Source: Paracyclopina nana (Eukaryota; Arthropoda; Copepoda; Cyclopoida; Cyclopettidae). From it: a stretch of DNA of 64,000 nt. Position numbers and translations under genes: made by a program. The notes beneath the pieces are model-generated. The model worked only from the letters and a program-made list of their open reading frames with translations, did not search any database and was not told the origin of the DNA. This document shows positions 7,410 to 45,397 of this stretch, one piece after another. Each line of letters opens with the position of its first letter. The first letter of the stretch is position 1. Where the stretch lies: the NCBI GenBank assembly GCA_019096065.1, contig JAGUCH010000006.1:3802001-3866000 (forward strand). Reading direction: 5' to 3'.

Positions 7410-7414
7410 GCATC
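7410..7414. repeat. Target-site duplication GCATC (left copy)
   Basis: GCATC directly abuts the TGTC end of the left LTR and recurs directly after the right LTR at 18552-18556. Five base pairs is the usual duplication length for BEL/Pao elements. Confidence 0.92.
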
Positions 7415-7659
7415 TGTCAACGATGGCTTCGGCGACTGAAGCAGAAGCAACCAAAGCAAGGCTAAGATCAACAGTCCCTGATCTAGCTTCGTGATCCTTG
7501 ACAAAGTCCAAATAAAAGTCCAAGTTTCCATAAAGTTTAGTCTTTATTCTCGGGTAATGCGAATCGAACTGGCGGCAAAAACTCAACGTAAAGTGAGAAC
7601 ACAAAGTACAGAGCGTAATCTCAGCCAAGGAAAGTAAAAGGGAAGGTGGGGCCTAGACA
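7415..7659 (-). repeat. 3' LTR of the BEL/Pao element
   Basis: 245 bp running from TGTCAACG to CCTAGACA on the plus strand, with TGTC/GACA terminal inverted repeats. It carries AATAAA on the minus strand (plus-strand TTTATT at 7543-7548), which would polyadenylate the element transcript. An AATAAA also occurs on the opposite strand at 7511-7516. By eye the copy at 18307-18551 has the same sequence. The short open frame through it is not a gene. Confidence 0.95.
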
Positions 7660-7669
7660 TTCTCCCCCC
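7660..7669 (-). other. Polypurine tract
   Basis: On the element strand the run GGGGGGAGAA lies directly against the TGTC start of the 3' LTR, the expected place for the plus-strand DNA primer in reverse transcription. Confidence 0.85.
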
Positions 7670-7720
7670 AAAGTAAGGCCAAAGGCCTAACTTTCCAAAA
7701 GCAGCTAGGAAACAATCTTT

Positions 7721-10700
7721 TTAAGCATCCTCGTCGCCGAGGATGGAACGTGAAACACAAGTCAAAAGAAAGTCCTTGCGCAAGTCAATCGACAACTGAA
7801 AGCGATCGTGAGATCCTTTCGCCCAAGACCAGGAAAGGCCGGGCAGCAAACTGCACGTATAAACGTTGAAAGGGGCCAACAAAGCAAAATCATTCAATAA
7901 ATGAAGATAGGGGACTTGAATGTGGTCAAATTGAGAGTGGCCAAGAGCACCACACGCATTGCATCTTTCGGCAAATTTAGGGCAAATTTGAAAAACGTGA
8001 CGGGAACTTTTACATCTGGGATAAATACAACGTTTTTTAACATGTTTGCAAGGACGTTCAATCTTCAGTTCGTCGGCGACAGCCAGATCAGCTTCAGCAT
8101 CTTCAGGGTCAGCAATGGCAGCTTGAGCCATATCCACGTGAGCCGTTGAGCCGCATTCTCCACAGCGATGTGGGAATGATTGCCCTGGCATGAACAATTC
8201 GTCCAAAATGTCCGCAACCGCGACTTGATCATATTTTCGACCTTCCAAAAAAGCTTTCAAATCAGCTCGTAGGCTAGGCGATGCGGCGAAAAGGTCAGGG
8301 GCATAATTAGCTTGCAGCAAGTTGTTGCGAATCACTGGCATCGAACAAATGGCGGGGCTGACATCGGGCAAGTGCAAAAAAGCAGGGCCCGCACGGGCAG
8401 AAGCATTATCCATAAAAAGCTTATTGCCAAAGGCCCACACATGGATGTCACGCTTGTTCTGAATGTTATTAATGGCCGTACGGCCACAAACAAGTGCACA
8501 CAAATAGTGAATGACACGGCCAGCGTCAGCCTCAGGCAAAGCTTGCATAAAGTCCAAAAGGGCACAAGCTTCGCGGCACAGCAAAATCATGGGCACACAC
8601 AAACGGTAAAAGGCGTAGAACAATAGGCCATTCTCCCAAGAGTTAATGGGGCGGGAACAATCAGCTAAAGGCCAATAAACTGTCACAGTGTCGCCACTGT
8701 AAGTAACAGGTGGTCGTGCCTCATTTTCAGCTTGAACATCATTGGCGGGGGAGGGGTGAATAACTTCCAAAAAAGAGGGCAGTTGCAATTGTCGCGAGAC
8801 AAATGCCATGCCATTTTTGACCGTCAAAGATTTGGTCAAAGATTGCGGCGGATAAGCAAAGGTAGCAATGTTGCTAGCATCACAGTCACCTTGCATGACT
8901 ATATCCAAACCGCCCAAGCGACGTCGATCCTCAAAAATATTGAATGCGACTTTGTGTATTGAAGGATCGCGCAAAATGTCAACAATGTCGCTTGGAATTG
9001 GCACGCCCAAAGAAATTTCTGGAAGGCCTCCGTAATTGACAACAATTAACAGGCAAATGCCATTAGGTGAAAGCAGGCCTAATGTCGTGAAAGCTTCAGG
9101 GGCGGGCTTGGTCATTCGAAAGCCAGCTTTGGCATAAGCAGCGGGAGTCCAAGGAATAGTAAGCACTGCCAGCAAGGTGCGTCGTCGGATGGAGACGCAA
9201 AACTCATCCGTCTCCAAAAACGGTTTAATTAATGGCCAAGGATGATCTTTGTCGTGGGAGACAATATTCCTGCACCCCTCTAAAATGCGCAAATCAAAGG
9301 GGCCAGCCAAACCTAAGCTATCTTTTAGGGCAGCAAATTTTGGGTACACAATGGCATAATCATCCTGGGAGAGCCCTTGGGCCAGGTCATCCCCTTTTAA
9401 ATAAGTTTTGGGCAACAAAGTGGCACATAGGGGCAAAAGACAAGGAGCAGCCTGCTCACCAGCTAAAAAAGCCCGTGCCGCGGGGCACACACAATAACCC
9501 GGGCCCTTAGGAAGTGGGGTGGCAACAAGGGCAATCATGGTGATTGGAGTGGAGCCAATGGCACCAAGTGCAAAGCTAATCGTGGCGGGAGTAAAATCGC
9601 AGATTTTGCCATTATCATCTACACCGAAGAAATACTTAGAACAATCGGTGATCCAGGGCCGCAGACGAGTGATGTCTTCCATAGGGAAACAGGCCAAAAA
9701 GTTGAGAAGATCTTCCTCAGCGAAGGCATTGTCATCTTCTTGAATGTCATCGTCAGCCGTTGCAAAACGTGGACGGGTGCGATGTGCGTCTCGCTGCCAT
9801 CTAAAGCGAATGGTGGCCAGATTCCTTGCTATTCGATGGTATGTGGCCAAGCTGGCCTTTGCGTTGACTCGTTCCGAATAATTCAAAGGCCGCGAGGCCC
9901 ACCGCTCATCAGAGGATAGACGACCAGTGCAGCTTATAAACAATGTTTGATGAGAAGCTTGCATGACTTCGATGACCGACTGGCCTTTCCAAAGACCTCC
10001 CATTCGAAAGCCTTCATCTTGGATGACAGATAGTCTGGCGGCAATCCTTTGTTGCTCTTCCCTGGAATCGGTCGACAGCTTGGCTCCAAAATTGAGGCTG
10101 CTGCCCAAGATTGCCACCGTCGGGTCTCGAAATGAGGACAATCGCGAGATTGTGTCCATGGAGAGCAAATCTTCTTCAAAATAAGCCCTGGAAAAGCCCC
10201 ATTGACGGCTCACCTTTGAAGCAATTGCACATAGTTCTTCAAGCCTGGTGTTGGTAGGGATGTCGAATTCCCGCAAAATAGGAGCCTTTGGCGCCGGGTT
10301 TGTGCCCATCAAAGGCCAACAAGCAGGAACGGATTCATTGTCCACCTTCTCTGAAAATCGAATCTTACGAATCGGGGTGGGCCTGCGAGCGTCGACGACA
10401 AACTCTTCTGGCGGATCTCTTGAAGGCATGGTGACAACAATGTTGGGTGGTTCGACCTTGACATGTTGCAATTTTTGTTCCAACTCCCGTAACTTCTTTT
10501 CCGCCGCTTCCCGTTGCGATTTTGCTTCTTGATACAATCGGAAATAGTCCGGCGTGGATCGAGAAAGATCTCGCGATCGATCAGGTTGTCTATTTTCAGA
10601 CGAGTGGCGGAGAGGAGACCTACGAGGAGAACGAGAACGTTGACGAGATCCTTGATTTCGGCCACTCCGAACATCGCGTTCAGGATTACGTGGCCGAGAC

Positions 10701-10840
10701 CGTCGATCATTTTCATACCTCTGTTGTCGCCGAGGAGCTTGGCCTGATCTTGAAGCTCGAGGAGGTGGTGAAGACCAATCGCTTGGAACCGGGGGTGTGG
10801 CGACATCCAAAACTTCAGGATCGCCCTGATTTTCAGCCAT
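7721..10840 (-). CDS. Third ORF of the BEL/Pao element: SR-rich / coiled coil / exonuclease-like / Cys-His knuckle protein
   Basis: About 1,039 codons from ATG at 10838-10840 (context GAAAATGG); the frame stays open only to 10876 upstream. It starts 178 nt after the pol stop, in another frame. Residues about 45-95 are Arg/Ser-rich (RSRSPRRSPLR), and about 100-130 form a Glu/Lys heptad-like coiled coil. Residues about 555-758 follow the layout of RNase D-type DEDD exonucleases: a strand ending TIPWTP where D-x-E-W-x-P is usual, then ILRDPSIHKVAFNIFED, then CDASNIATFAY, then SRPINSWENGLLFYAF. The Exo I Asp/Glu and the last Asp are missing, so the domain should be inactive. Residues about 893-973 hold CxxC, Cx4Cx4Hx4C and CxxCx4Hx4H clusters. 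No signal peptide or membrane helix is visible, so it is not an envelope protein. Domain reading is by pattern only; its role in the element's cycle is unknown. Confidence 0.85.
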   Translation of the reverse strand: MAENQGDPEVLDVATPPVPSDWSSPPPRASRSGQAPRRQQRYENDRRSRPRNPERDVRSGRNQGSRQRSRSPRRSPLRHSSENRQPDRSRDLSRSTPDYFRLYQEAKSQREAAEKKLRELEQKLQHVKVEPPNIVVTMPSRDPPEEFVVDARRPTPIRKIRFSEKVDNESVPACWPLMGTNPAPKAPILREFDIPTNTRLEELCAIASKVSRQWGFSRAYFEEDLLSMDTISRLSSFRDPTVAILGSSLNFGAKLSTDSREEQQRIAARLSVIQDEGFRMGGLWKGQSVIEVMQASHQTLFISCTGRLSSDERWASRPLNYSERVNAKASLATYHRIARNLATIRFRWQRDAHRTRPRFATADDDIQEDDNAFAEEDLLNFLACFPMEDITRLRPWITDCSKYFFGVDDNGKICDFTPATISFALGAIGSTPITMIALVATPLPKGPGYCVCPAARAFLAGEQAAPCLLPLCATLLPKTYLKGDDLAQGLSQDDYAIVYPKFAALKDSLGLAGPFDLRILEGCRNIVSHDKDHPWPLIKPFLETDEFCVSIRRRTLLAVLTIPWTPAAYAKAGFRMTKPAPEAFTTLGLLSPNGICLLIVVNYGGLPEISLGVPIPSDIVDILRDPSIHKVAFNIFEDRRRLGGLDIVMQGDCDASNIATFAYPPQSLTKSLTVKNGMAFVSRQLQLPSFLEVIHPSPANDVQAENEARPPVTYSGDTVTVYWPLADCSRPINSWENGLLFYAFYRLCVPMILLCREACALLDFMQALPEADAGRVIHYLCALVCGRTAINNIQNKRDIHVWAFGNKLFMDNASARAGPAFLHLPDVSPAICSMPVIRNNLLQANYAPDLFAASPSLRADLKAFLEGRKYDQVAVADILDELFMPGQSFPHRCGECGSTAHVDMAQAAIADPEDAEADLAVADELKIERPCKHVKKRCIYPRCKSSRHVFQICPKFAERCNACGALGHSQFDHIQVPYLHLLNDFALLAPFNVYTCSLLPGLSWSWAKGSHDRFQLSIDLRKDFLLTCVSRSILGDEDA
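7922..8164 (-). other. Cys/His knuckle cluster of the third ORF
   Basis: Three groups are readable: CGECGSTAH, then CIYPRCKSSRHVFQIC (Cx4Cx4Hx4C), then CNACGALGHSQFDH (CxxCx4Hx4H). The spacing resembles retroviral zinc knuckles with altered ligands, which suggests RNA or nucleic-acid binding. Confidence 0.7.
8569..9178 (-). other. Degenerate RNase D-like 3'-5' exonuclease region in the third ORF
   Basis: The order of conserved blocks follows the DEDDy exonuclease fold (RNase D, WRN-exo, EXD1/EXD2, Nibbler). First comes a beta strand then TIPWTP (Exo I, D and E lost). Next is a hydrophobic strand (GICLLIVVN), then ILRDPSIHKVAFNIFED (Exo II, Asp kept). After these come a CDASNIATFAY helix, a SLTVKNGMAFVSRQL segment like the 'sLa.La..yL' block, and RPI..WEN.LLFYAF.RLCVPMILL like the Exo III 'RPL..eq..YAa.DA' block with Asp replaced. 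Similarity is by eye, not by a profile search. Confidence 0.5.
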
Positions 10841-10919
10841 TTTCGTGCGTAGAAAAAGAAGGGCGTCAAAACTCACGTTTTGAGGCTGAGTTGATCGGCG
10901 GAAGGGGAAATGCCATCAG

Positions 10920-10921
10920 CT
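10920..10921 (-). promoter_or_regulatory. Candidate 3' splice acceptor for a subgenomic third-ORF mRNA
   Basis: Between the pol stop and the third-ORF start, the element strand reads a branch-like TTGCTGAC, a pyrimidine run and TTTTTCATCAG, a good acceptor consensus. A second weaker CAG lies about 34 nt further on. After the first acceptor a 16-codon ATG frame precedes the main ATG; the second acceptor would skip it. Retroviral env genes are expressed by such a splice. No donor was pinned down. Confidence 0.4.
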
Positions 10922-11018
10922 GATGAAAAACCAGTAAAAAGTCAGCAACACATTTTGCGGGAAAATTTGAACAACAAAATAGGAACATAAAGATAGAGAT
11001 CTCGCAATCTCTACATAA

Positions 11019-14000
11019 TCAATTTAGTTTCATAAAAACTTGAGGCTTGGCACTGCGTAGTCTTGATCTAATATCGTTATTTTTCAGGTCATCAAAAGTA
11101 GTTTGCCAGTTATGGACTATTGGCTGTAAAGCTGACGGAATAGAATCCGTGTTGACATCTTCTATTTCAGCTTCTTCTTCTTCTTCTTCAAGCGGAACGT
11201 CAAAATTGGGATCATCGTCCAAAAATGGAATATCCGACTCATTTAGGTCAACTTTAACGTAGTGATCATCTTCTTGAAAAACGTTAATGGGAACCAATCT
11301 ATTGAGGGGCCGCTTTAACTCAATCTTGTTCTTTTTTCGATGAGGTTGAACGTGTAAAAGAGCGGTACGTTGCTCGCCATCAAAATCAGTCATCACATCA
11401 ACAACTTTGCCATATTTCCAAGTGTTGCGTCTATCAAGGTCATCTGCTACTAAAACTAATTGTCCTTTTTTCACAGTACCTTTAGTTTGATGCCATTTTG
11501 GGACTTCGTGGAGAAGAGAAAGCCATTCCGGAAGCCAAGAACTCCAAAGCTGGTTGAGACATTCTTCAATGAGGGCGAACCTCAACGGCAACGTTGATAT
11601 ATCCTCTGGAGCTAAAACTGGCAATGTTTCTCCTGGAGGACCCCTCGTCAAAAAGTGCGAAGGAGTCACAATCTCGCCATCAATTTCCCCTAATGGTCGT
11701 GAATTGACTATAGCCTCAGCTTTAACAACCATAGTTTCGAATTCTTCAGTTCTTAGCTTGTGCTTTCTATAAGTCTTATAGAGAGCAGTTTTCCACAGTT
11801 TTATACTGGATTCTGACAAACCATTGAAGTTAGGGCCGAAAGGAGGTGAAAAGAGCCAGGTTTTAACTCCGCAGTTAGCTCCCCATCTTCTTAGAGCCAA
11901 CCAATCGAGCTCTTTTATGTCTTTTAAAAGGTCACCATGTCTTTCATCTTCAACAATGTTCTTCATGGTCCTGACCAAACTGCTTTGGTTGTCAGACCTA
12001 ATGGATTCAGGGCAACCTCTTCGTCCAATAAATCGTTCTAAAGCTAAAGTGACATTTTCAGTTCTCAGCGAACTTACTATTTCAGTATGAATAGCTTTAG
12101 TATGGCGACAAATAACCACTAGCACCCATTTTTTGACAATAGTACGATTATGGATAACTTTGAAAGGGCCTGCAAAATCCAGAGCAACATGTCTAAATGG
12201 AAAAACATCTGACAATGCTACAGCTCTCTCTGGATGTGGAGCCATCGCTGGCTGCACAACAGTGTTACGCATTTTTTGACATTCTACGCATTTTCTTATA
12301 ACTTTTTCACACTGTTGTTTTCCTTTGATAATCCAAAACTTCGACCTTAATCTGTTTAACAAGGATTGCTTTCCAATTCCATGGCCAATTTTGCTATGGA
12401 ACTCTTGCACTATATTTTGAACCAAAGCGCATGGAGGTAAAATGAGTCTTGATGTTGTCCAGGGTGAGATGATCTGCGAAGATCGTCCTTGTGATCTTAA
12501 TTCCCCCTGTTCTCCAATAAGAATCCTCAATCCTTGTAATTCTGAATGTTTTGGGAATTGTGAGTGCTTCAACAAATAATCGATCTCGTGATCAAAATAT
12601 TGTTGCTGTACACACGCAATTAATAGAATTTCGGCCTTTTTTGTTTTTGGTATTGCATAGCGTTGGGCAGTTATAGTAATACTCCCCCCATTTTTCTGCC
12701 CTGCAGAAAAATCAGGATCCAATTGAGCTTTTCGCAAAGCTACACGATCTTTTAAATAGTAGACAAAGTTGATGAGATGACCCAGAAGTCGTTTGCTTTT
12801 TGCGAAGCTATTAGTGGCAGTTAAAATTTTCTCAATGGGAACATTGCGTAGAGATTTGAATTTTTCCGCATATTGTGCAAAATGCATCATAGCTTGATCA
12901 CCCAATTGGACAGCTAGCGATAGCTGTACATGGGGTTGAACATATTCAGCCACCGCTTCATAATCTTTGACGTCTGGTCGCCAGTCCGGAAATTGGTCCA
13001 CAGGACCCTGTAGCCAATCTGGGCCTTGAAACCACAGCTTTTCTTCTGCTAACTTCTTTGGAATCTTTCCACGAGTTGGAATGTCACTAGGATTTTGCTT
13101 TCCAGGAACATGCGACCATAAAAATTTTTTCGTTAGCCCGTAAATCTCACAGACACGACGAGCGATGAAAGACCGCCAAGCAACTCCAGGTTTGGAGATC
13201 CATGTAAGGGCGCACTTCGAGTCCGTAAAAAGGTGGAAGTTGATGGTTTGTGGAAACAATTTTGACAATGTTCTTGCTAGTCGCGCACCTAATAAAGTGC
13301 CCAAAAGCTCCAATTGCGAAATTGATAGTTTTTGTTTTAGTGGAGCCAAACGTCTTTTGGACATCAGTAACTGGCAAGAAACAGGGTTTTCCACTCGAAC
13401 ATAGGCGACGGCTGCATAAGCAAGCTCTGAGGCATCCGTGAAAATTACGATGCGAAATTGGTCGTCAGCATTATGAACGACTGGGCGAGGAAAAATAAGA
13501 CGAGGCAAATCTTGCAATGTTGAAATAACAGTCTTCCATTCTTCCAGGATTGAATCAATTTCTTGATGGTGTAGGCGGTCCAGACAAGTGTCCCAATCAA
13601 AAGATTGAACAGTGCGCAAGGCACACATTTTTTGCATGGAAAACCGAAGGTAAAAAGTGACAGGGTCAATGAGACCTAACGGATCATAAAGTTTGCATGC
13701 CACCGAGGCTATTTTCCTCATGGTAATTGGCGATTCAATGGATTTTGACAAATCAGGACAGGCAAACTCAATAGTGTCTTTTTGGTAATTGATGATGAGA
13801 CCTAGAGCTTTAACTCGCACGTCGGCTCCTGGCAAGGAAGCACTCCATTTTGCATTGATGTCATCATTTGGCAAGTCCGCGAGGACTGTCGGATGACTAG
13901 AAAGCCACTTTTTTATTGGAAGGCCAGCCAGCATCATTAGCTCTTGACATTGCTTGACTGCCAACTTCGCAGTTGGGATGTCTGGTTGTCCGCTGATGAT

Positions 14001-15395
14001 ATCGTCCATGTAGGTATCATGGAGGAAGATTTGTGCTGCCAAAGGAAATTTTTCTTTATGCAACTCAGCATGGTGTCGCAGAGCATACAAGGCCATGCAA
14101 GGAGAAGCTTTTGCCCCAAACACAATGGACGTCGACTCATAACAGTTGCCATTCCAATAAAAGCGATAATATTTCCTATCCTCTGGAAGCAGTCGAAATT
14201 GGCGATACATTTTTTGAATATCTGCAGTGATGGCCACAGGCGCGAGCCTTAACCTTAGCAGGACTGTGAGAATGTCCATTAGAAAATTGGGGCCCTCTAG
14301 TTGAGCGGAATTTAAACTGGAAGTGTTTGGGCCGGCTCTGGAGCAGTCAAAGACAACACGAAGAGGTGTACTTGTAGATGATGGATCTTTTCTAACAAGG
14401 AGCCAGAACAAGTAAAAGCCATCTGTAATGTCATCCACTGATGGATTCAAAAGCCGAATGAAACCAGCTTCCAAGTCCTTTTTAATTTCCGCCGTCACTT
14501 TGTCATGCAAATCCGGATTGGTAACCTTCAGTCTCGTTTCGAATTTTTTAGTCATCACCAAAACTTGATAATAGTTAGGAGGGAGATCTGGATGACCTGG
14601 AGCCCATATAGTTGGCACCCACAAATGCCCATCAGGCCCGAGATGAGTGCCCTTTGAAAGAAGATCAAGGACATAGCTGTCTTGCTTATTGATGATCTTT
14701 ATTTCAGCGTCATCGCTGACGCCTAATAGATCTAAAGACCAAAGTTTGTCCAAAGCCACAACAGGGTTTGATTCGCAAGAATCAACAGGGTCAATAGGTA
14801 AAACAGAAGATTTTTGACTAGGAAACACTGAACATTGTAAGTCGTACAATTTTAGAGTTTGAGATCCATAAAGACAAACAGGACCTAGCATAGTGTCAAT
14901 AACATAGGGCCTTTTTCTTTGTAGACTAGAACGGCGAGGTGTAAGCCAGTCAAAGTGCTCCACACCAATGATTAGATTAATATCATTACCCACTAATGGT
15001 GGAAAGTCATAATGAGCAATATCTGGAAACTCGCGTTTCAAAATGTCCAGTTGAGGCATATAAAAATCTTCGATAACAGTAGGAGCAGTATTAGCGATAA
15101 TAACCTCCGTGAATTGTTCATAGACTGTGCTCGTTATTCTTAATTGAACGACTTTTGATTGCAACGTTTGAGATGAATTCAACATTCTAATGTGTTGAGT
15201 TGTCTCTTTTCCAGGTAAGTTTAAAAGAGTGGCCAAATCCTCCTTAATAAAGCAACCAGCGGCTCCCGTATCCAATAAAGCATTGATTTTGACGCGATAA
15301 GCGGAATCCGGATGTGATACGTAAACGGGAGCAATAGGATGACACACATACCTTGGTGGTCGATCTTGGCCAGCTGATGCTTGGAGGAGTGGTTG
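11019..15395 (-). CDS. pol: pol polyprotein of the BEL/Pao element
   Basis: The frame is open for 1,458 codons from the triplet after the gag UGA and has no convincing ATG at its start, so it is probably made as gag-pol. Numbering from the GTG at 15347, I see: aspartic protease motif LLDTGA near 24-29; reverse transcriptase about 250-500 with YMDDI at 446-450; RNase H with TDAS near 638 and TDSK near 708; a connection region; integrase zinc finger (H, H, then CVEC) about 984-1023; and an integrase core with D near 1057 (LDFAGPF), D near 1119 (IRSDN) and E near 1180 (GLSESS). A C-terminal segment of the DUF5641 type follows (GQLVLVADDLDRRNTWKYG), then an acidic tail. No catalytic residue is obviously lost. 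The order protease-RT-RNase H-integrase with this tail is typical of BEL/Pao. Confidence 0.95.
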   Translation of the reverse strand, partial: QPLLQASAGQDRPPRYVCHPIAPVYVSHPDSAYRVKINALLDTGAAGCFIKEDLATLLNLPGKETTQHIRMLNSSQTLQSKVVQLRITSTVYEQFTEVIIANTAPTVIEDFYMPQLDILKREFPDIAHYDFPPLVGNDINLIIGVEHFDWLTPRRSSLQRKRPYVIDTMLGPVCLYGSQTLKLYDLQCSVFPSQKSSVLPIDPVDSCESNPVVALDKLWSLDLLGVSDDAEIKIINKQDSYVLDLLSKGTHLGPDGHLWVPTIWAPGHPDLPPNYYQVLVMTKKFETRLKVTNPDLHDKVTAEIKKDLEAGFIRLLNPSVDDITDGFYLFWLLVRKDPSSTSTPLRVVFDCSRAGPNTSSLNSAQLEGPNFLMDILTVLLRLRLAPVAITADIQKMYRQFRLLPEDRKYYRFYWNGNCYESTSIVFGAKASPCMALYALRHHAELHKEKFPLAAQIFLHDTYMDDIISGQPDIPTAKLAVKQCQELMMLAGLPIKKWLSSHPTVLADLPNDDINAKWSASLPGADVRVKALGLIINYQKDTIEFACPDLSKSIESPITMRKIASVACKLYDPLGLIDPVTFYLRFSMQKMCALRTVQSFDWDTCLDRLHHQEIDSILEEWKTVISTLQDLPRLIFPRPVVHNADDQFRIVIFTDASELAYAAVAYVRVENPVSCQLLMSKRRLAPLKQKLSISQLELLGTLLGARLARTLSKLFPQTINFHLFTDSKCALTWISKPGVAWRSFIARRVCEIYGLTKKFLWSHVPGKQNPSDIPTRGKIPKKLAEEKLWFQGPDWLQGPVDQFPDWRPDVKDYEAVAEYVQPHVQLSLAVQLGDQAMMHFAQYAEKFKSLRNVPIEKILTATNSFAKSKRLLGHLINFVYYLKDRVALRKAQLDPDFSAGQKNGGSITITAQRYAIPKTKKAEILLIACVQQQYFDHEIDYLLKHSQFPKHSELQGLRILIGEQGELRSQGRSSQIISPWTTSRLILPPCALVQNIVQEFHSKIGHGIGKQSLLNRLRSKFWIIKGKQQCEKVIRKCVECQKMRNTVVQPAMAPHPERAVALSDVFPFRHVALDFAGPFKVIHNRTIVKKWVLVVICRHTKAIHTEIVSSLRTENVTLALERFIGRRGCPESIRSDNQSSLVRTMKNIVEDERHGDLLKDIKELDWLALRRWGANCGVKTWLFSPPFGPNFNGLSESSIKLWKTALYKTYRKHKLRTEEFETMVVKAEAIVNSRPLGEIDGEIVTPSHFLTRGPPGETLPVLAPEDISTLPLRFALIEECLNQLWSSWLPEWLSLLHEVPKWHQTKGTVKKGQLVLVADDLDRRNTWKYGKVVDVMTDFDGEQRTALLHVQPHRKKNKIELKRPLNRLVPINVFQEDDHYVKVDLNESDIPFLDDDPNFDVPLEEEEEEAEIEDVNTDSIPSALQPIVHNWQTTFDDLKNNDIRSRLRSAKPQVFMKLN

Positions 15396-15398
15396 TCA
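15396..15398 (-). promoter_or_regulatory. Single in-frame UGA between gag and pol
   Basis: gag ends with GAA TGA CAA, and the frame then continues open into pol with no further stop for over 4 kb. A base C follows the UGA, the least efficient termination context. It could be a programmed readthrough stop or one nonsense mutation in what is normally a fused gag-pol frame. Confidence 0.85.
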
Positions 15399-18236
15399 TT
15401 CAGTTGAAACAGAAGGAGAAGTTGATGGATTGTCATCCTTCTTCAAATTTTGCACCGCAGCAACAATTTTTTGCAGAGCATCAGTCACATGCTTTTCAAT
15501 GGCCGAAGTAGTCACTTTGTCATCGGGTTTTTTCTGAGAAGCAGAGTTGGCGACAACTTTGTTAATAGGAGGTTGCGGCGCCGGTCCATCTGATGATTTT
15601 GGGCAAATGAGCCAATGATGATTAGAGGACTTACAAAGCCGACATTGCCAAGACTTTTTTGGGCAAGCTGAGCGCGAATGTGCTCCCATAGTGCAACGGA
15701 AACATAGCTTGTTATCATAAAGGTGAGTTTTTCGTTCAACTCTAGGCATGTTGAGAAAAGCATCACATCTCCACAAGGAATGTGCTTCCTTACATTTAGT
15801 ACATGACAACGTTGGCCTACTGGTCATTGGCATCGTAGCTAGAATGGTAAGAAAATCACCTTGTGACTGTTCATGAAACCCGTTTTGGTCCTCATCTGAG
15901 TCCGACAAATCACTGCCATCCCACAATTGGCAGGCCAAAACAGTGTTTGAGCTCTTCTTCGCAGAAGAGCTGAAAACACTATGAGTTTGCTGCAAAAGTT
16001 GCATTTGAGCAGAGCACCAGGAATCAAAGCAATCAAAAGTGAATCCCATTGGACTATGCAAGGACTGGTAGATTCCATAAGAAAGTTGAGTCACTGAAGT
16101 AAACCGAAGTCTAGCCATGACTGAAGAATGGTGAGAGGCCAGATTGCCAACGTCCACTTGTAGCAAATGAACTTTCACTTTGTTCACCGCTGATCTTGCT
16201 GCACTAATTGAATTAGCATCGCTGCTATCAATAGGCTGCAAAGTATCCAAATTTTTGAAGGCATAAGCTATCTGACGTTCCATCAACCCATATTCTCTGT
16301 GCAGAGTGTCTCGGCACATTTGATAGCCTTCTTCGCTTCTTGGAAAGAAAGCTATGGCTTCATAGGCGGGTGCTTTTTCTCCTTTATTATAGGTGGCTTG
16401 AAGAAGACGCATGTGCTTTTCATTATAATTGAGAAAAGGGTTGTTATGCACCAAATAGTCAAAGTCAGCAATAAAAGCAAAATATTGCGATGGATCATTT
16501 CCCGTAAAAGGAGGAATTTCAACAGCGGGCAACTTGATATTTTTATACCTCTCCTTTAAAAAGTGATCAGAATCCAGAGATGACCTTGGGGTTGAAGGTC
16601 GAGGAGTAAAAGCGCTTGATGAAGGCGGCAATGGAGGCCGAAATGGAGGCCGCTGGAACTGATCTTGCGATTTTGGTAAATTTGGAAACGGATAAGTTGA
16701 CCAGGAATGATTGGTAGACGGGGTTGCAGATTGCTGCTGATTGTGAGGAGTCGAATGGTTGTGGGTATCATTTGTTCCTCCCCCCGTTTTGGCATCCTTC
16801 AATTCGGTCGAGAATTTGACTTGAAAGGGTGCAGCCTTCGGATTGAGAGACGGCTTTCTCGCGAAAGAAGCCTTTTCTTTTATAGCAGAAAATTTTGCAG
16901 AATTTCTGATGCCAATCAAAGTATTAGTCCTGCTGGTTAAAGTTGAATCATACTTATAACAATCAATGTCAGGATTGACTGTATTCCAACTTCTAAGCCA
17001 CCACATCCTTTCCGCCTCTACATCAATGAGCGAAGTAAAGACCAGAGACGAAGCAGGGTCCAATTGAGCGACAACATTTTCAGCTTGAATCAATAGATTT
17101 TGTTGTCTTTGTTTAATTTCCTCATACTTCGCAGCATATTGTTCCATCTCATCTGTGGTTACTCCTAAACAAGTTTGAAATTGTTCTTCCACAGCCGTTG
17201 AATGAGGCATTGTCGCCAATGACTCCTTTTCTGATTTTATGGGGGGCTGGAAAAACGTCTTCATCTGGGATGCCAAAATGGCATGAACATCCACTGGAGA
17301 AGAAGTGACAGGTTTTGGAGATGCCGCCTTTTGTTGCTGATTCCAATCAATTGTTTGTAATGATTGAAGTAAAGAGGCAGCATTTTGTTCCAGCTTCAAT
17401 GTATCATGCTTTAAATCCAAAATATCCCGCTGTTGTTTTAGAGCTTCCATGACTGATTTTGCAGTGCTCAACACCGGGGTCTTGGCTGCCAAAGTAGCAG
17501 CTGAGGAGGCCTTTAAAGCCTCCACGATGGATGACATCATTTTTGAGGCATCGAAACTCAATGAAGACAATAATTCCAACGATTGATTAGGTGAATCCAA
17601 TGATAACTTTATTTTATTAACCAATTGAGAACCGTTCGCGAGAACAGTATTCAAAGAGGCTAGGCATTGACGATCAATGGCAACCTGTTCATCCACTGAC
17701 GTATTCATCGACAAAAGCTCGCGCTCTAATTGAAGAATAGCCTCCTCTTCCGTTGGATTTTGGTCAATTGGAGTATCCGGATTCATAGTGAATGGTTTTG
17801 TCCTTTTCGCAATAGCAGATAATCCGGTCTCAAAGGGTGGGTGGTCCGAAGCCCGAGTCGTCGTGACTGCAGTAATGTCTCGGACCGTGGAATTTGCTGC
17901 AATAGAAGTGGCAGAATCAAAAGATTGAGATACCTCCGCTGATGAATCAACAATGGAGACAATTCCACTTATAGCTTCTGACTCAGCCTCTGACACGTTC
18001 ATATCCGGATTCCGCGAGGAATCCCGAATTTGCAACGAAGTGTCACCCAGAGGTACTGGATTGGTTAGATGCTGAATTGACTCCAAATATTGAGGTTGTT
18101 TAGCCGTGGCCACAAATTTGACGTGTTGTTGTTGTTCTGCCAAAATTTCTTCTTCCGTTGGAGCGGGAATGCCTAAAAGCCGTTTACTTTTTCTTTCGGG
18201 AGTTAACCCTTTTTGTTTTTTCTTAGTTTTAGGCAT
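15396..18236 (-). CDS. gag: gag polyprotein of the BEL/Pao element
   Basis: 946 codons from ATG 18234-18236 (start MPKTKKKQKG). The frame extends 23 codons further up, across the primer-binding region, without an ATG. The N-terminal half is Ser/Thr/Glu-rich with helical stretches. Residues about 570-690 match the DUF1759 gag core of BEL/Pao elements (LPAVEIPPFTGNDPSQYFAF followed by YNEKHMRLL). Three CxxCx4Hx4C knuckles follow at about 812-878 (15600-15803): CTKCKEAHSLWRC, CFRCTMGAHSRSAC and CRLCKSSNHHWLIC, as expected of an RNA-binding nucleocapsid. The C-terminus is Lys/Ser-rich and ends at the UGA discussed separately. Confidence 0.93.
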   Translation of the reverse strand: MPKTKKKQKGLTPERKSKRLLGIPAPTEEEILAEQQQHVKFVATAKQPQYLESIQHLTNPVPLGDTSLQIRDSSRNPDMNVSEAESEAISGIVSIVDSSAEVSQSFDSATSIAANSTVRDITAVTTTRASDHPPFETGLSAIAKRTKPFTMNPDTPIDQNPTEEEAILQLERELLSMNTSVDEQVAIDRQCLASLNTVLANGSQLVNKIKLSLDSPNQSLELLSSLSFDASKMMSSIVEALKASSAATLAAKTPVLSTAKSVMEALKQQRDILDLKHDTLKLEQNAASLLQSLQTIDWNQQQKAASPKPVTSSPVDVHAILASQMKTFFQPPIKSEKESLATMPHSTAVEEQFQTCLGVTTDEMEQYAAKYEEIKQRQQNLLIQAENVVAQLDPASSLVFTSLIDVEAERMWWLRSWNTVNPDIDCYKYDSTLTSRTNTLIGIRNSAKFSAIKEKASFARKPSLNPKAAPFQVKFSTELKDAKTGGGTNDTHNHSTPHNQQQSATPSTNHSWSTYPFPNLPKSQDQFQRPPFRPPLPPSSSAFTPRPSTPRSSLDSDHFLKERYKNIKLPAVEIPPFTGNDPSQYFAFIADFDYLVHNNPFLNYNEKHMRLLQATYNKGEKAPAYEAIAFFPRSEEGYQMCRDTLHREYGLMERQIAYAFKNLDTLQPIDSSDANSISAARSAVNKVKVHLLQVDVGNLASHHSSVMARLRFTSVTQLSYGIYQSLHSPMGFTFDCFDSWCSAQMQLLQQTHSVFSSSAKKSSNTVLACQLWDGSDLSDSDEDQNGFHEQSQGDFLTILATMPMTSRPTLSCTKCKEAHSLWRCDAFLNMPRVERKTHLYDNKLCFRCTMGAHSRSACPKKSWQCRLCKSSNHHWLICPKSSDGPAPQPPINKVVANSASQKKPDDKVTTSAIEKHVTDALQKIVAAVQNLKKDDNPSTSPSVSTE

Positions 18237-18289
18237 GAATCTAAAGGTGATCGGGTTCGATGGCAGCCGCGAGGCTGTCGCAATCCCGG

Positions 18290-18304
18290 GTCGCGTGTGC
18301 ACCA
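18290..18304 (-). other. Primer-binding site
   Basis: Two bases after the 5' LTR the element strand reads TGGTGCACACGCG, which begins with the TGG complementary to the CCA end of a tRNA. TGCACCA is the 3' end of many glycine tRNAs, the usual BEL/Pao primer, but the match weakens after about eight bases, so the primer is unproven. Confidence 0.6.
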
Positions 18305-18306
18305 AA

Positions 18307-18551
18307 TGTCAACGATGGCTTCGGCGACTGAAGCAGAAGCAACCAAAGCAAGGCTAAGATCAACAGTCCCTGATCTAGCTTCGTGATCCTTGACAAAGTC
18401 CAAATAAAAGTCCAAGTTTCCATAAAGTTTAGTCTTTATTCTCGGGTAATGCGAATCGAACTGGCGGCAAAAACTCAACGTAAAGTGAGAACACAAAGTA
18501 CAGAGCGTAATCTCAGCCAAGGAAAGTAAAAGGGAAGGTGGGGCCTAGACA
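18307..18551 (-). repeat. 5' LTR of the BEL/Pao element
   Basis: 245 bp, read as identical to 7415-7659, with TGTC/GACA ends and the minus-strand AATAAA at the same offset (plus-strand TTTATT 18435-18440). It should contain the element promoter and the transcription start in U3/R. Confidence 0.95.
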
Positions 18552-18556
18552 GCATC
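18552..18556. repeat. Target-site duplication GCATC (right copy)
   Basis: Perfect repeat of 7410-7414, directly after the GACA end of the right LTR. Confidence 0.92.
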
Positions 18557-22725: not shown

Positions 22726-25700
22726 GCATTCTTCTCGTGGCCTTCACACTAGCCTCGCCAGCCTCCGGCCAAGTGAGGCCACCAAACTTCTCCCCAGATG
22801 CCATACCTGAAACGAGCTTCACTTGCGAAGACAAAATCACTGGTGGTTACTATGCAGATCAAGAGGCTGAGTGTCAGCTGTTCCATGTGTGCGTTCAAGT
22901 CTCCGAGTATGAGGTAAGCTGTTAACTATGTTTTGTGAGAGGCAACAGCGAGCGTCTCATCTTTTTCCCGGATGACGGTGTCAAACGGCATTAAATCGAT
23001 ACATATCTGAGCAGCTTTGAAATATGATAGGGCATATCAGAGAACCTATCAAATGTCATGATGGGCTACAAGTGAATAAAAAGTCAATTTTTTATGCTCC
23101 ATTATAACGACTTTTTCACCACAAACTCAAAACTGCATCAAAACTGCATTCTCTGGCAAATTAGTAGGCTTTATTCTCGCGATGTTATTCAATCTGGCAA
23201 TAATTTAACACCATGCCATCACATTATCTTGGCTGATGAAAAACTGATTTAGTGCTGTAATAAAGCCACTCTCGTTTGAGTTATTGAATCTGCACGCAAG
23301 GTTTCATTTAATAGCTTTTGGGGTGAGCTGACCATCCATCATAAATTGAACACCTTAGGTAATTTCGACGCGAGCCCATAGAGACAACAATAAGAGTGTA
23401 ACATATCACACATTTATTTATCCTCGAGGGCCTTTAATTTGCAGCAGCAACTAATTTCTAGCATGAGGTCATCCTCAGCTTTCAAGGATACCACAAAATT
23501 ACCCTTCATAAATACCATGACGCAAACTTTATTCAAGGATGATGCCTTGCATTTTCAACTTATAGGCTAACGTATGCAAATGACACAGTCTATGATTATT
23601 TAGTGTTTGCCTAAAATGGCAGTTGAAGGTATCATCTGCTCGAAATTCCAACTGTAAAAACATGACATTGCAGTCGAGGGCAAATTAGCCCGCTCTAATT
23701 GCTTTTTACAAATACGGAATCTTAATAAGCATAACTGCAAGTACGATGACTTGCAAGTTTCGCCTATTTTAAGGTTATTCATATAGCAGCTCTAAAATTA
23801 CAGGCACACAGAGAAATCGTTCCATGCTGCTAGTCTTCCTCGAAAACAGACCATTTGATGCATACCGACGCGCATCAGAAAAAAAGTGATCTAAGAGCAC
23901 CAATTACGAGCCGGTTAAGGCACGATTCGCAGCTAAAGTTGCTCAGACATTTTTTGTTACTGCCAAGCTCCAGCAAAGAGACCATGACCTCTATGGAAAA
24001 TGTCGTCTATACATAGCAAAAGGAAAATTCTTCTAGCTGCCTAAAGGAAGGAAAAACTGGGGATGTACTGAATTTTTTTCGTTTTCTTGCCAACTCGAAT
24101 GTCATCTTTGCCTGTCGGCACTAAATAATTGGCTTGATCAGAGATTAGTTAATTGTAAGAAAAAATGAGGCTGTATGTAATTAACCTAACAGCACTGGGA
24201 TTCAAGGATGATGCAGAAAAAGCAAATATCAGGACGTGCACAGCAGGCCATTTTGGGGGAAATAAGATCTCAGTGGGATGCAATTAGACTAGATTTTAAT
24301 GAATGAGCTCTTGTTTTTTACTTATGTGCAATTTTCAAAGCATATTACAGCTTTTTATAGGGCCATTACGTATTGCCTTAATGTGGAATCGAGCATACTT
24401 TCGCGTCACCTCGTAAATGTCAAAGTTTTGTCGATTGTCGGTTCCATTTCTCATCTCGAGCAGCATTATTATACTGTGACAGCGCCTGTAGTGGGTTGCT
24501 GCTACTGAAAAACCGCGAAAACGGCCTTGAACATTTGAAAAGGTGCAATATGAAAACCCATAATCGATGAATGCTGCTGCAAAATGTTAATTTGAAACAC
24601 ACTATTACTTCGCTGCTGGAGCAGTAGGCGTACGTGCGTCTATTTTTGGAGAAAAACCTTCAATTTTTTCCATTTTCTCCGACCACTGAATTCTGTTCAA
24701 AGAGCAACATTTTTCCCCAAGGTAAAAATTGGCCAAGAACAGAACCCAAGCCCAAATAAGGAGTGGCCTTAGACATAAAGTTGCAAAATCAATTATTGCT
24801 GTGGTAGGTCAAGAGCACGTTATTTATGAAAGCTTAAGAATTCATTTTAGTGTATAACAAAGAAAGGAAATGCATTGTGTGTTCCCACGCATCGTTACTC
24901 AGGCAGTTTCTTAATTTGGAGGAAAGGGTTAATTGTTACCTAGGAGTTCATCATTTCCAGCTGAGCCGTCATAGAAATGCTGAAGAAAAAAGTCAGCCAA
25001 GGTTCACTGGAAATAATTTCAATGCCAAAGCCAAATGAACTTTTACCAATGCTGATCATCTTCACAACTCTCGTACCTATATGATTATTGCAAAAAATAT
25101 GGGAAACTAATCATAGCCTTGCTGTTTTATTTTCAGTTCCAAGATTTTCGGTTCCTGTGCCCCAATGACACAGTGTTTGACCAACAAAATCTCGTCTGCA
25201 CCAACTGGTTTGAGGTGGATTGTCGCCAGTCTGTCTCCTTCTTCTTCCAAGGAGTTGGCCTGAGAACTGTGGCCAAAACGAATAATAACAACAACCAAAA
25301 GCCAGCAGCTCCTCAAGAGCCCAGACAAGAAGAAGAAGAAGAATATGAATACGAATACACCTACTCAGACTATGACGATCAGAATCGTTTTTTAGCCAAT
25401 AGTACGCCATCACCGGCCTCTGGAAACGACGGTGTTGGCGGCGGAATTCGAGGCCAGGGTTTCCAGAATTCCAACAACATCGACCAAGACTTCAATGACG
25501 ACGAAAGAGTTAGGCCAAAAAGGCCGCCAAAAACCACCACTGCCATTCCAATCAGCGTGACGACCACAAGAAGACCACCGAGAGTCAAGTCCAATTTGGC
25601 GGCGAATAAAAGGCCCACAAAAAGGCCTACAATCAGGCCTGAGGTGCCAGTCGAATTCACTCAGCCTGACATCACTGACGATAGATCGAAAGACCCTTTC

Positions 25701-28700
25701 AAAAATCCTCCTTTGATCAGTGCTGATGGGAAGAAGCCACGAGTCAAATCCAATTTAAACACAGGTAGCGTTAATGGTGGCTTTGCTGCTACCCATGAAA
25801 AAACAGGGGTGAAATCCAGCCAAAAGGTCAACTTTGACGAGGATGCCTTCAAGTTTGTTCCACCCCAAGAAGAGTTGGTCGTGGATTATGAAGTTGAGCT
25901 CAATGGAGGTTTCGACCAAAGTTTCACTCTGAGCAATGGGCCTGAAGTTAGGCCTGATGGTAGGCCTCCTAGAATCAAGGCTAACATTGAGGCCATCAGA
26001 CATAACCAGGGACGCAAGATTGTACAAAGCCCAGTGTCCACTGAGAGTCCATTTGATGCCATACTTCCGAATGCCAAGCCCTTCACCCAAACACCACTGC
26101 CCCCAGCTCCAATAGTGGAGCCATCCAGGGAAAAAATTCAGGATGTGCCCAACAACTTTTTCGTCACTGAACGTACCCAAAATTCAGGTCCGAGAGTCAA
26201 GTCCAACATTCTGGCAGGAAAGGCCAACACAGGTCAACGCAATAGGGTTGTCATCCCTCAAGACCAACTTCCTGGTGCCCTATCAAGATTGCCCACAACT
26301 CCTCAACCTGCAGTGGTCACCACCACTCAATCTCCCACATTTTTCCACTCATCCACATTGTTGTCCATCTTCGATGACTCTGAACAATCTGAGTTTAACG
26401 AGCCAGAGTTTATCGATGAGATCGACGAATTTGAGTTGCCAGCTGTCACCACCACTAGCCGGCCTTTTATTCCTCCATCTCCAACGCGAAGGCAAAGGCC
26501 ACGAGTTAAATCTAACATTTTGGTTGCTCGCAAAAATAAATTCCAATCGCAGCAAGGACAGCCCGAAAAGACCAGATCCAGGGTTCAATTCAACAACGTC
26601 AAATTTGTGTCTAATGTAAATGAAAATGAGGTCGATGATGATGGCATTGCTGACGAAGTGGACGATGGTAACAGATGCTCAAATCCATTTAAATGTCCTC
26701 CCTCGAAACCAGCTGATGGTCGAAAGCCACGTGTCAAGTCGAATATAAAGGCTAGAAATAGAAATTATTTCCACCCTTCAACCAGCCATACAAACCGAAT
26801 TCGAGGCAAACCTTCGTTCAAGAACACCCAACAACAGACCAGAAATGGAAAAGCGAGTCGAAAACCCTTTGAGAAGGTCAGGAACAATGAATTGCCGAAG
26901 AGTTCTTCACTTGAAAATGATGGCTTGAACAACAATAGTGAGAAGCAGGAAGACGAGAAGCGTGATTTTTTCACTGGAACTGCTTTTAGCCAGCAACCCA
27001 TCGTTTTTACCACAGAACGTCAATTTGCTGCACACCAAGGTATTTTTGAAAACGCCATTCAGCAACAACAACTAGAACAACAACAAGTTGTCTCGTCAAC
27101 AACTGAGAGTCTCCTAATGAGCTTGCTCAACCAAATTGAGGAGGACAAGAAGAACAATGTCGAGCCCCTGATTTTCACAAGGCCTGATCACATTCCTCAA
27201 ATCCCACAGGCCCCTCAAATCCCTCAAATAAGAAGAAGACCACAAAAGCCCGTTCAGAGGCCACAAAGGCCTGTTAGGCCCATTTCCCCAACTCCTTCCC
27301 CGCAGACCAGCCCTCCTCCTCCTGCCATCCACTTTACCACATCTACCACCCCATTTTCCATTGTGAGCACCACTGATTTCATTTCAACCACACAGAGGCC
27401 TGGAATTTTGCAACAACAAAGCTCTTCTCCACCAAGAACTCCCAAGCAGCAAAACCAGCTGGGATTGAATGGAGCAGCCATTTCCACAACTGTCAAGCCT
27501 GAATATGAATACTATTATGAATATGAATATGAGGATGATGACTATCAAGGAGGACTTGAGCCACCATCACCAATTGCACCTGAGCCATCTCCACTAACAA
27601 CACAAAACTTGCCTGTGTCCACAACTGAAGCATTCTTGCAAGCAGATTTAGCCTCACCTCAGCCACTTGTAACCCCTCAAGTTCAACAATCTCCAGTGAC
27701 ATTGCCACCCAGACCTACTGTGAGTGATCCAGGGTTTCCACCCATTCCCACTTTTTCCCCTGAACAATTGAGGAAGCAGAGGATTCAGAGTTTCAGACTT
27801 GCTAGACCCCCTAAGGGTTTCCCTGCATTCACAAAGAAGAAGGTTGCTGGAAATAAGCATGATAAAGAGGAGGAGGAGGAAAGTAGTACTCAGTCAACCA
27901 GATTCCCTTTGAAAAGTAGGCCTACTCCATTTGAACCTAGGCCCGAAACCACGCCTGAGATCCAAGCAGATAATGCAGTTCCATTCCCAAGCACAGATGC
28001 AAGGAAACCTCGAGTTAAATCTGATTTGAAGCAAGCTCGCATCAATAGCGGAGTCCCAGCTAGCAGAGAAGCCAGAAAATTCCAGCCCAGTAGGTTCAAC
28101 CAGAAATTGTTCAAAAATCTTCAAAAAGAGCCAGACAGCGAAGAGTTAATCGTTACTACTGAGAGCAGTAGCGGCCTAAATGAGATTACTCAGCCCCCAC
28201 TTGACGTCGAAGAAGACGAGACGGAAATTCCAAGCATCTCAGTTACAACTGAGAATGTTCCTGTGACAACAAGAAGGCTCAGTGTGAAAGATTTATTTGG
28301 CGACCCCGCTGTGAAGCCTGACGGCAGAAGACCACGTGTCAAGTCAAATATTAAGCAAAGATTGGCTGACAATGGAAGAAACTTCCTTGAATCGCAGAAG
28401 ATACCGGTACCCGCCGACCTTTTTGAGCCCAAAAATCACGAAGAAAGGAGCATTGATCAAAGCAAGGCACCGCAAAATCTGCTCGATGAGACAGCTCCCA
28501 TTGTTTCAGTAACTGAACCACCGGTATCTGGCAAGTCAGCTGAATCAGCAAATCACGAGGAAAACGAGGTGCTCAGTCAGCCAGCTGGAAAAGGCAAATC
28601 AAATCTGCTACTGCAGCTGAAGAATGGCAAATTCAAGATTGACCCGAACGAAATAAACCAGTCGAGCGACCATGAACCTCTCGTGAGGCCTGACGGTCTG

Positions 28701-29171
28701 AAGCCGAGGGTCAAGTCCAACATTCTTGCAAATCAGCGGGACCATCATCAAACTCCAAACAATGACAAGAAGAATTATGCATTTAGGCATAGCAAAAAAG
28801 TAGAAGACAGTGACTTTGTGTTCGAGCCAACAACGCTGAGAAATCTGGAGGAGCCAGTGGAGACTTCAACGCCCGAAGTTTTGACAACGACTACAGAACA
28901 TCCGTCAACAGCCACTGAAGAACCTGCAACGACTACCACAGAATTTCCAGTCAGTAGCACACATCCCACATCTCTATTGGATGCATTGTTGTCCACTCAG
29001 GTTCTTAATACGAGAGCTGTGGACCCAACTTTGGCATCTTTGCACGAAAAGATCAAAGAAGAGTTTGAGCAGCAACAAAAATACAGGAGGAGAAAGCGAA
29101 AGAGCAAAAAGAAAGATTTGGGGGGAGAAGAAAACGATGAAGAAGTTGAGGATGATTCAACACCTGTTTGA
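22726..29171 (+). CDS. Secreted protein with one chitin-binding type-2 domain and repeated RPRVKSN motifs (5' exon missing)
   Basis: Two exons join in frame: 22726-22913 and 25137-29171, across a 2,223-nt GT-AG intron. About 1,407 residues are visible; the initiator exon was not found. The start (ILLVAFTLASPASGQ) is the end of a signal peptide. Six cysteines then form a peritrophin-type domain split by the intron: FTC, EAEC, HVC, FLC, LVC, VDC. This points to cuticle or other chitin matrix (CPAP1-like layout). The rest is low-complexity Pro/Thr/Gln sequence with two acidic Tyr-Glu runs and nine copies of a motif like DGRKPRVKSNI, spaced through the chain. The C-terminus is strongly basic (RRRKRKSKKK) then acidic. 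No membrane helix is seen. I do not recognise the exact orthologue. Confidence 0.85.
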
Positions 29172-44700: not shown

Positions 44701-45397
44701 CATGTCACGAGGGACGCCCCATGCAAGATTAAGGCCACGATGATTAAACAAATTGCTACGTGAGCAGAAGGTTTTATGTAAACTATATTCAAGCCTGATT
44801 GCGAAACCAAAAAGTTCCAACATGAGCCATAAAAAACCTAGGCAGCAACAATAGGACCATCATCTTTCTGCTGTAAAAATTTCGAGCCCAAATCTGCGAT
44901 CAGCCATGACATTAAAGAATATTGGTCAACCTTGTATTTTCTGTATTTATGGGAGAATTTCCCTCGCCACTCTCCACGGTTGACTGGTTAAGTGCGCTCT
45001 CGCACCTGGCCAAAAAGGACTTTTTCAAAGTCGCCTTGCAAGTTTTTCCACGTGATCCGCGCTAACGCGAATCACGCATCACACACGAGCTCGCAGGTCT
45101 AAGAAAGTGACTTGGCGTCTGTCCGTCCGTCCGTCCGTCCGACCGACGTTGAAATCTCCCCGGCTTCGGCGGACAGTGCGACTTGCGATTCGCTCTGATA
45201 TACACGAGAGCAGACCACTCCAATAGTGTCCTCAATTTTCGGTGCAAAAATCATGGGTACATTGAAATGAGTAACATGTAGTGTGCACAGTGCTATGAAC
45301 CCCCTAAACGCATACATATGATATAGAATGGAGCTAGAGGAAATATGAAGTGCAGCAGTTGCAGAAGAGGTATCCAGACTAACAGTGATCTGCCGTG
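29750..45397. other. 15.6-kb gene-poor interval
   Basis: No exon, RNA gene or mobile element could be supported here. Open frames reach at most 200 codons (43680-44282) and look random: no domain, no signal peptide with continuation, and no splice-linked partner. It may hold regulatory DNA or a 5' non-coding exon of the mucin-like gene. Confidence 0.45.
45117..45147. repeat. (GTCC)n tetranucleotide repeat
   Basis: Five successive near-perfect GTCC units followed by degenerating GACC units, about 250 bp before the start codon of the mucin-like gene. Confidence 0.85.

Follow-up and report, generated by a model that had tools for sequence, protein, structure and literature searches.

A BEL/Pao retrotransposon of the copepod Paracyclopina nana encodes an accessory protein with a predicted and apparently inactive DEDDy exonuclease fold

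The window analyzed here is a stretch of 64,000 nucleotides from the copepod Paracyclopina nana (contig JAGUCH010000006.1, positions 3,802,001-3,866,000); all positions below are counted within it. The window harbors a complete long terminal repeat (LTR) retrotransposon of 11.1 kb on the minus strand (7415-18551). Its third open reading frame (ORF3), downstream of pol, encodes a protein with a predicted RNase D-like DEDDy exonuclease domain that appears to have lost its active site. The element is a BEL/Pao retrotransposon, as indicated by the Pfam domains of pol, including Peptidase_A17 (E 2.4e-36); the matches to reverse transcriptase and aspartic protease fall below Pfam's cut-offs. The BEL/Pao hallmark of paired LTRs with a target-site duplication is also present. 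The identity of the two LTRs suggests that the insertion is recent. The element contains the following features.

18307..18551, minus strand: 5' LTR, 245 bp, TGTC...GACA, an exact direct repeat of 7415-7659
7415..7659, minus strand: 3' LTR, matching the 5' LTR at 245/245 positions
7410..7414, no strand: left copy of the target-site duplication GCATC that flanks both LTRs; right copy at 18552-18556
15396..18308, minus strand: gag frame with Cys/His knuckles, terminating at an in-frame TGA (15396-15398) immediately before pol
11019..15395, minus strand: pol, with aspartic protease, reverse transcriptase, Peptidase_A17 (Pao), integrase zinc binding and DUF5641 (Pfam)
7721..10840, minus strand: ORF3, the accessory protein downstream of pol, 1039 aa from the first Met (10840)

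The stop-to-stop frame of ORF3 spans 7721-10915 and encodes 1064 aa. The N-terminal tail is basic, and three Cys/His clusters lie toward the C-terminus; the region between them appears to form an RNase D/EXD2-like DEDDy core. Matches to ORF3 occur at 43 places in the 92 Mb (10 contigs) of the genome that were searched, the window copy included. Group A, to which the window belongs, and its sister group B are compared below; alignment A5 holds 26 group A and 12 group B rows, with one group B copy (L034) left out. The parts of ORF3 are as follows.

10316..10840, minus strand: Arg/Ser/Pro-rich N-terminal tail, residues 26-200, 17% Arg by sequence composition
8420..9322, minus strand: DEDDy exonuclease-fold domain, residues about 532-832, from the structure model and structural matches
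9155..9163, minus strand: former Exo I site, D to Leu585 and E to Ile587, from alignment A5 with group B
8927..8929, minus strand: Exo II Asp663, kept, from a phmmer match and alignment A5
8603..8617, minus strand: Exo III site, Tyr767 kept and D to Arg771, from alignment A5 with group B
8138..8164, minus strand: first Cys/His cluster, CX2CX4H, present in the tested form in 25/26 group A and 2/11 group B rows
7982..8029, minus strand: second zinc-knuckle-like motif, CX4CX4HX4C, in 25/26 group A and 6/11 group B rows
7922..7963, minus strand: third zinc-knuckle-like motif, CX2CX4HX4H, in 26/26 group A and 11/11 group B rows

The original prediction, made from the window sequence, described the blocks of an RNase D-like domain in a BEL/Pao ORF. 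These blocks are found in the order described at 8569-9178 (minus strand), corresponding to residues 580-782 of the 1064-aa frame. The location was correct, but the extent was too short, as the domain covers about residues 532-832. The fold itself is borne out by an AlphaFold2 model, structure prediction having been one of the checks proposed. The model that includes the domain has a mean predicted local distance difference test score of 78, and 19 of the 30 ten-residue blocks across the domain score at least 90. A Foldseek search of the PDB with this model returned 12 matches at E<=1e-3, all EXD2. The best 50 realigned PDB matches listed fall in residues 324-659 of the model, and their titles are those of DEDD nucleases or of polymerases with such a domain. 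In a fold search of BFVD only one protein matched at E<=1e-3; it is a 3'-5' exonuclease of a giant virus and is taken as the same fold only. The window ORF3 domain is thus modeled with an RNase H-like DEDD fold.

The sequence comparisons agree. With phmmer, the 8569-9178 stretch had a single match at E<=10 among 177,635 PDB sequences, to EXD2 (E 0.023). Of the group B ORF3s, all six with the domain match Pfam DNA_pol_A_exo1 (E between 1.3e-5 and 1.7e-3; a single one passes Pfam's cut-off), although these matches are circular because the group B loci were found by a search with PF01612. Independent checks are the blastp and hhalign matches of group B to group A, the PDB profile search and the fold searches. 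Group B aligns with the window's group across the exonuclease domain at E 5.7e-20, and all five PDB matches of the group B profile at E<=1 are DEDD exonucleases, with a best E of only 0.099. Judged from the structural matches and these alignments, the match to DEDD exonucleases is beyond chance. The EXD2 exonuclease domain (PDB 6k17 and related) is closest by phmmer, by Foldseek rank and by the score of host genes against the group B profile, with 21% identity to the window domain across 109-112 structurally aligned residues. EXD2 is a cellular enzyme without a basic tail or zinc knuckles of the ORF3 type.

The active site differs between the two groups. At the positions of Exo I D, Exo I E, Exo II D, Exo III Y and Exo III D, the window protein has L, I, D, Y and R; of the four DEDD acidic residues, only the Exo II Asp is kept. 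The original prediction had described an apparently preserved fold from which the Asp and Glu of Exo I and the Asp of Exo III are missing, and the alignment with group B leads to the same conclusion. The canonical residue is present at all five columns in 12/12 group B rows, whereas the corresponding counts in group A are 0, 6, 14, 24 and 1 of 26 rows, and none of the 26 has an intact set. The catalytic register was read from the alignment with group B, not from residue-level superposition on a solved structure; two profile alignments agree with it, one of them for Exo I and II only. Group A has 17 invariant columns, none of them catalytic and some group-specific, such as a Trp directly after the old Exo I site. 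The only group A row with the Exo III Asp, L028, branches from the unresolved base of the group, which would fit an initial loss at Exo I, followed by drift at Exo III. Intact-looking and dead-looking ORF3 exonucleases therefore coexist in one genome on related BEL/Pao elements. The left-out group B copy (L034:558-3369, minus strand) is split into two overlapping frames inside the exonuclease domain, and its pieces were scanned separately.

ORF3 is consistently associated with pol. A pol match lies upstream on the same strand in 28/28 group A loci examined, the window's included. Six of the 13 group B loci were examined as well; each has a pol match upstream, and Peptidase_A17 and DUF5641 are present in all six. 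Pairwise distances in the integrase region and the exonuclease domain are strongly correlated (r 0.95 for 26 group A loci; r 0.91 for 31 loci of both groups), and 0 of 2000 permutations reached r. This correlation indicates that ORF3 descended with pol; by these distances, the exonuclease domain has belonged to the lineage for long enough to have diverged alongside pol. Groups A and B have a mean integrase identity of 28% and a common ORF3 layout, so acquisition of ORF3 before the two groups split is the simplest reading. In six copies (L007, L009, L011, L015, L016 and L017) the stop-to-stop frame of ORF3 shares several hundred bases with the 3' end of pol, unlike in the window.

The protein also seems to be retained in the inactive clade. 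In two recent group A pairs the proportion of nonsynonymous differences (pN) is far below that of synonymous differences (pS): 0.008 versus 0.063 in L007/L008, and 0.001 versus 0.035 in L012/L013. Nine within-subfamily pairs picked by hand, five from group A and four from group B, have pN of 0.05-0.11 versus pS of 0.67-0.84, the latter near or at saturation. Since pN is far below pS, the inactive clade seems to keep its ORF3 protein.

It is reasonable to propose, with a probability of roughly 0.7, that ORF3 is an accessory non-envelope protein whose inactive DEDDy core is a nucleic-acid-binding fold derived from an active ancestral 3'-5' exonuclease. The computed basis for this proposal comprises the predicted fold, the lost residues, the zinc-knuckle motifs, a sister group with every catalytic residue in place, shared ancestry along the length of ORF3, divergence that parallels that of pol, and a substitution pattern that leaves the protein largely unchanged. 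During element replication the ancestral ORF3 would have trimmed RNA or single-stranded DNA from the 3' end, and group B ORF3 may still perform such trimming during the element cycle. In the window's clade the nuclease step would have been lost, and the retained fold would offer a surface that binds nucleic acid without cutting it, acting together with the basic tail and the zinc knuckles. The cellular pseudo-exonucleases EXD1, Egalitarian and Maelstrom resemble the window ORF3 in having a DEDD fold without full catalysis, and they have RNA-binding roles. By analogy with host EXD1 and Egalitarian, the inactive ORF3 may hold, protect or package element RNA. The ORF3 zinc knuckles (7922-8029, minus strand) have weak similarity to the end of gag (blastp E 0.034) and perhaps have a common nucleocapsid-like origin with those of Gag.

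Several observations weigh against this proposal. Taken by itself, the window ORF3 matches nothing in Pfam at E<=10, group A members likewise find no DEDD family in Pfam, and the group A profile finds no DEDD protein in the PDB, only one unrelated match (E 1.8). With that profile, none of six exonuclease domains of the host reaches a positive bit score. Group A varies at its former catalytic columns and has not fixed new residues there, which shows loss but does not demonstrate a new function. The evidence of constraint is weaker in the window's own clade, where the window and its nearest kin, L003, have pN 0.328 and pS 0.684. Synonymous sites are saturated in most pairs (pS is below 0.62 in only 1 of 325 pairs of A1), and the pairs other than the A1 census were chosen by hand. 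The active state as ancestral is deduced by parsimony with cellular DEDD enzymes, with the root placed on long branches. A fold alone shows no function, and both the activity and the binding of ORF3 are predictions.

The best of the alternatives is that the inactive domain acts as a decoy or suppressor, mimicking the DEDD proteins of host small-RNA pathways (EXD1, Nibbler and Maelstrom) and disturbing the silencing of the element. The fold is common to EXD1 and, for the group B model, Nibbler; the host genome carries EXD1-, Egalitarian- and EXD2-like genes; and the fold has outlasted its catalytic residues. However, the sequence is nearest to EXD2 rather than to EXD1 or Nibbler, and the active site of sister group B is apparently intact, which makes it unlikely that the domain was already a dead decoy on entry. 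A decoy role for group A ORF3 is improbable, a possible but unsupported special case of a binding function.

Much less probable is the suggestion of the original prediction that the window element captured an EXD1- or Nibbler-like host gene. Gene capture by transposable elements is known, and such genes are present in the host, if one counts a gene that we take to be Nibbler-like. The phylogeny with host exonucleases, also proposed at the outset, separated the six host domains, group A and group B into clusters (Shimodaira-Hasegawa-like approximate likelihood ratio test support of 83, 99 and 97, respectively), but because long branches join there the placement cannot be relied on, and the tree cannot settle the origin. 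The group B profile favors EXD2 (16.0 bits) over RRP6 (2.0), EXD1 (0.4) and the other host domains (below zero); EXD1 and Egalitarian, also cellular, are weaker matches by sequence, although with long branches in the tree. That ORF3 is homologous along its length in two deep BEL/Pao groups suggests an old acquisition, and the domain has diverged with pol. Exchange between retroelements, argued for rotifers in the passages available from PMC5408684, is as likely. Capture by the window element itself is conceivable at long odds.

A decaying relic without function would be expected to have variable former catalytic columns, as seen here, but 47/52 matching stretches are free of internal stops, pN is far below pS and the 17 invariant columns are all noncatalytic; this explanation is very unlikely. 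An envelope-like ORF3 is the least likely of all: it has the location downstream of pol where the few LTR elements with env carry it, but the most hydrophobic stretch in a hydropathy scan (residues 608-626, mean 1.86) sits on predicted strands in the core of the exonuclease fold, and the zinc knuckles and Arg-rich tail fit a nucleic-acid-binding protein.

DEDDy ORF3s are already known from other retroelements. The available passages of Rodriguez et al. 2017 (PMC5408684) describe them in the Juno and Vesta LTR retrotransposons and the Athena/Terminon elements of bdelloid rotifers, cases repeated in the passages seen of PMC6431247 and PMC5718144. Like these, the window ORF3 follows pol, is of a non-envelope type and has a predicted DEDDy domain of the RNase D kind, and like the ORF3s of Vesta2 and Vesta5, for which a Cys-His-Cys motif is noted (PMC5408684), it has zinc-knuckle-like motifs. 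The rotifer elements differ in that Juno and Vesta carry a dUTPase domain and the words 'BEL' and 'Pao' are absent from the available text of PMC5408684. The rotifer ORF3s, compared here by description only, are reported there to have intact invariant residues, with DEDD changed to DEED, whereas the active site is lost in one BEL/Pao clade here. According to the same source, Maelstrom and EXD1 are DEDD derivatives that have become inactive but still bind RNA. What is new, relative to those passages, is the BEL/Pao host and a clade with a dead active site. The original prediction knew of no BEL/Pao element with such a domain; a literature search, with most subscription journals outside its coverage, likewise found none, although the claim to novelty does not extend to LTR retrotransposons at large. 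The passages seen of two surveys (PMC3118150 and PMC2996953) name no exonuclease ORF, and were not searched for that word. As outlined in PMC3118150, BEL/Pao elements have LTRs of 0.2-1.2 kb, a range that includes the window's, and gag, the Pao peptidase domain and integrase are common to both; the usual length is 4.2-10 kb versus 11.1 kb for the window element, of which ORF3 accounts for ~3.1 kb.

A broader and more tentative proposal, which we consider less probable than its negation, is that a BEL/Pao lineage turned an active RNase D-type ORF3 into a pseudo-exonuclease that binds nucleic acid on behalf of the element in a large persistent clade, possibly against small-RNA silencing, with both states kept in one genome. 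If true, this would be a transposon-encoded counterpart of host EXD1 and Egalitarian. When an LTR element has an additional ORF where env would sit, that ORF often goes without an explanation. The window ORF3 is such a case, now assigned to a predicted nuclease fold in BEL/Pao, extending enzymatic ORF3s beyond the rotifer elements described in the passages of PMC5408684. With both forms in one genome, one can ask directly how a 3'-5' exonuclease benefits a retrotransposon and why an entire clade outlived the loss of its active site.

Protein homologues beyond the genome were not found among ~8000 scored candidates per query (residues 200-960 counted from 10846 at E<=0.001; A1 and A4 at E<=10), the candidates being picked by short exact words or patterns. 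In viral contigs, none of 17 (A1) and 19 (A4) pattern matches was confirmed. These negatives cannot show absence elsewhere, as the number of animal genomes in the collections was not established.

Finally, gag and pol share one frame split by the single TGA (15396-15398, minus strand), which is followed by CAA CCA; stop-codon readthrough or another bypass may operate at this site. An Rfam scan of the window gave no match at gathering scores. Elsewhere in the window, a separate host ORF (60073-61584, plus strand) is presumably a REXO1-type DEDDh exonuclease. A chitin-binding-like ORF with repeated RVKSN motifs at 25056-29171 (plus strand) would fit an arthropod host, and the ORF at 45389-48211 (plus strand) is long, mucin-like and rich in Thr, which also forms long runs.
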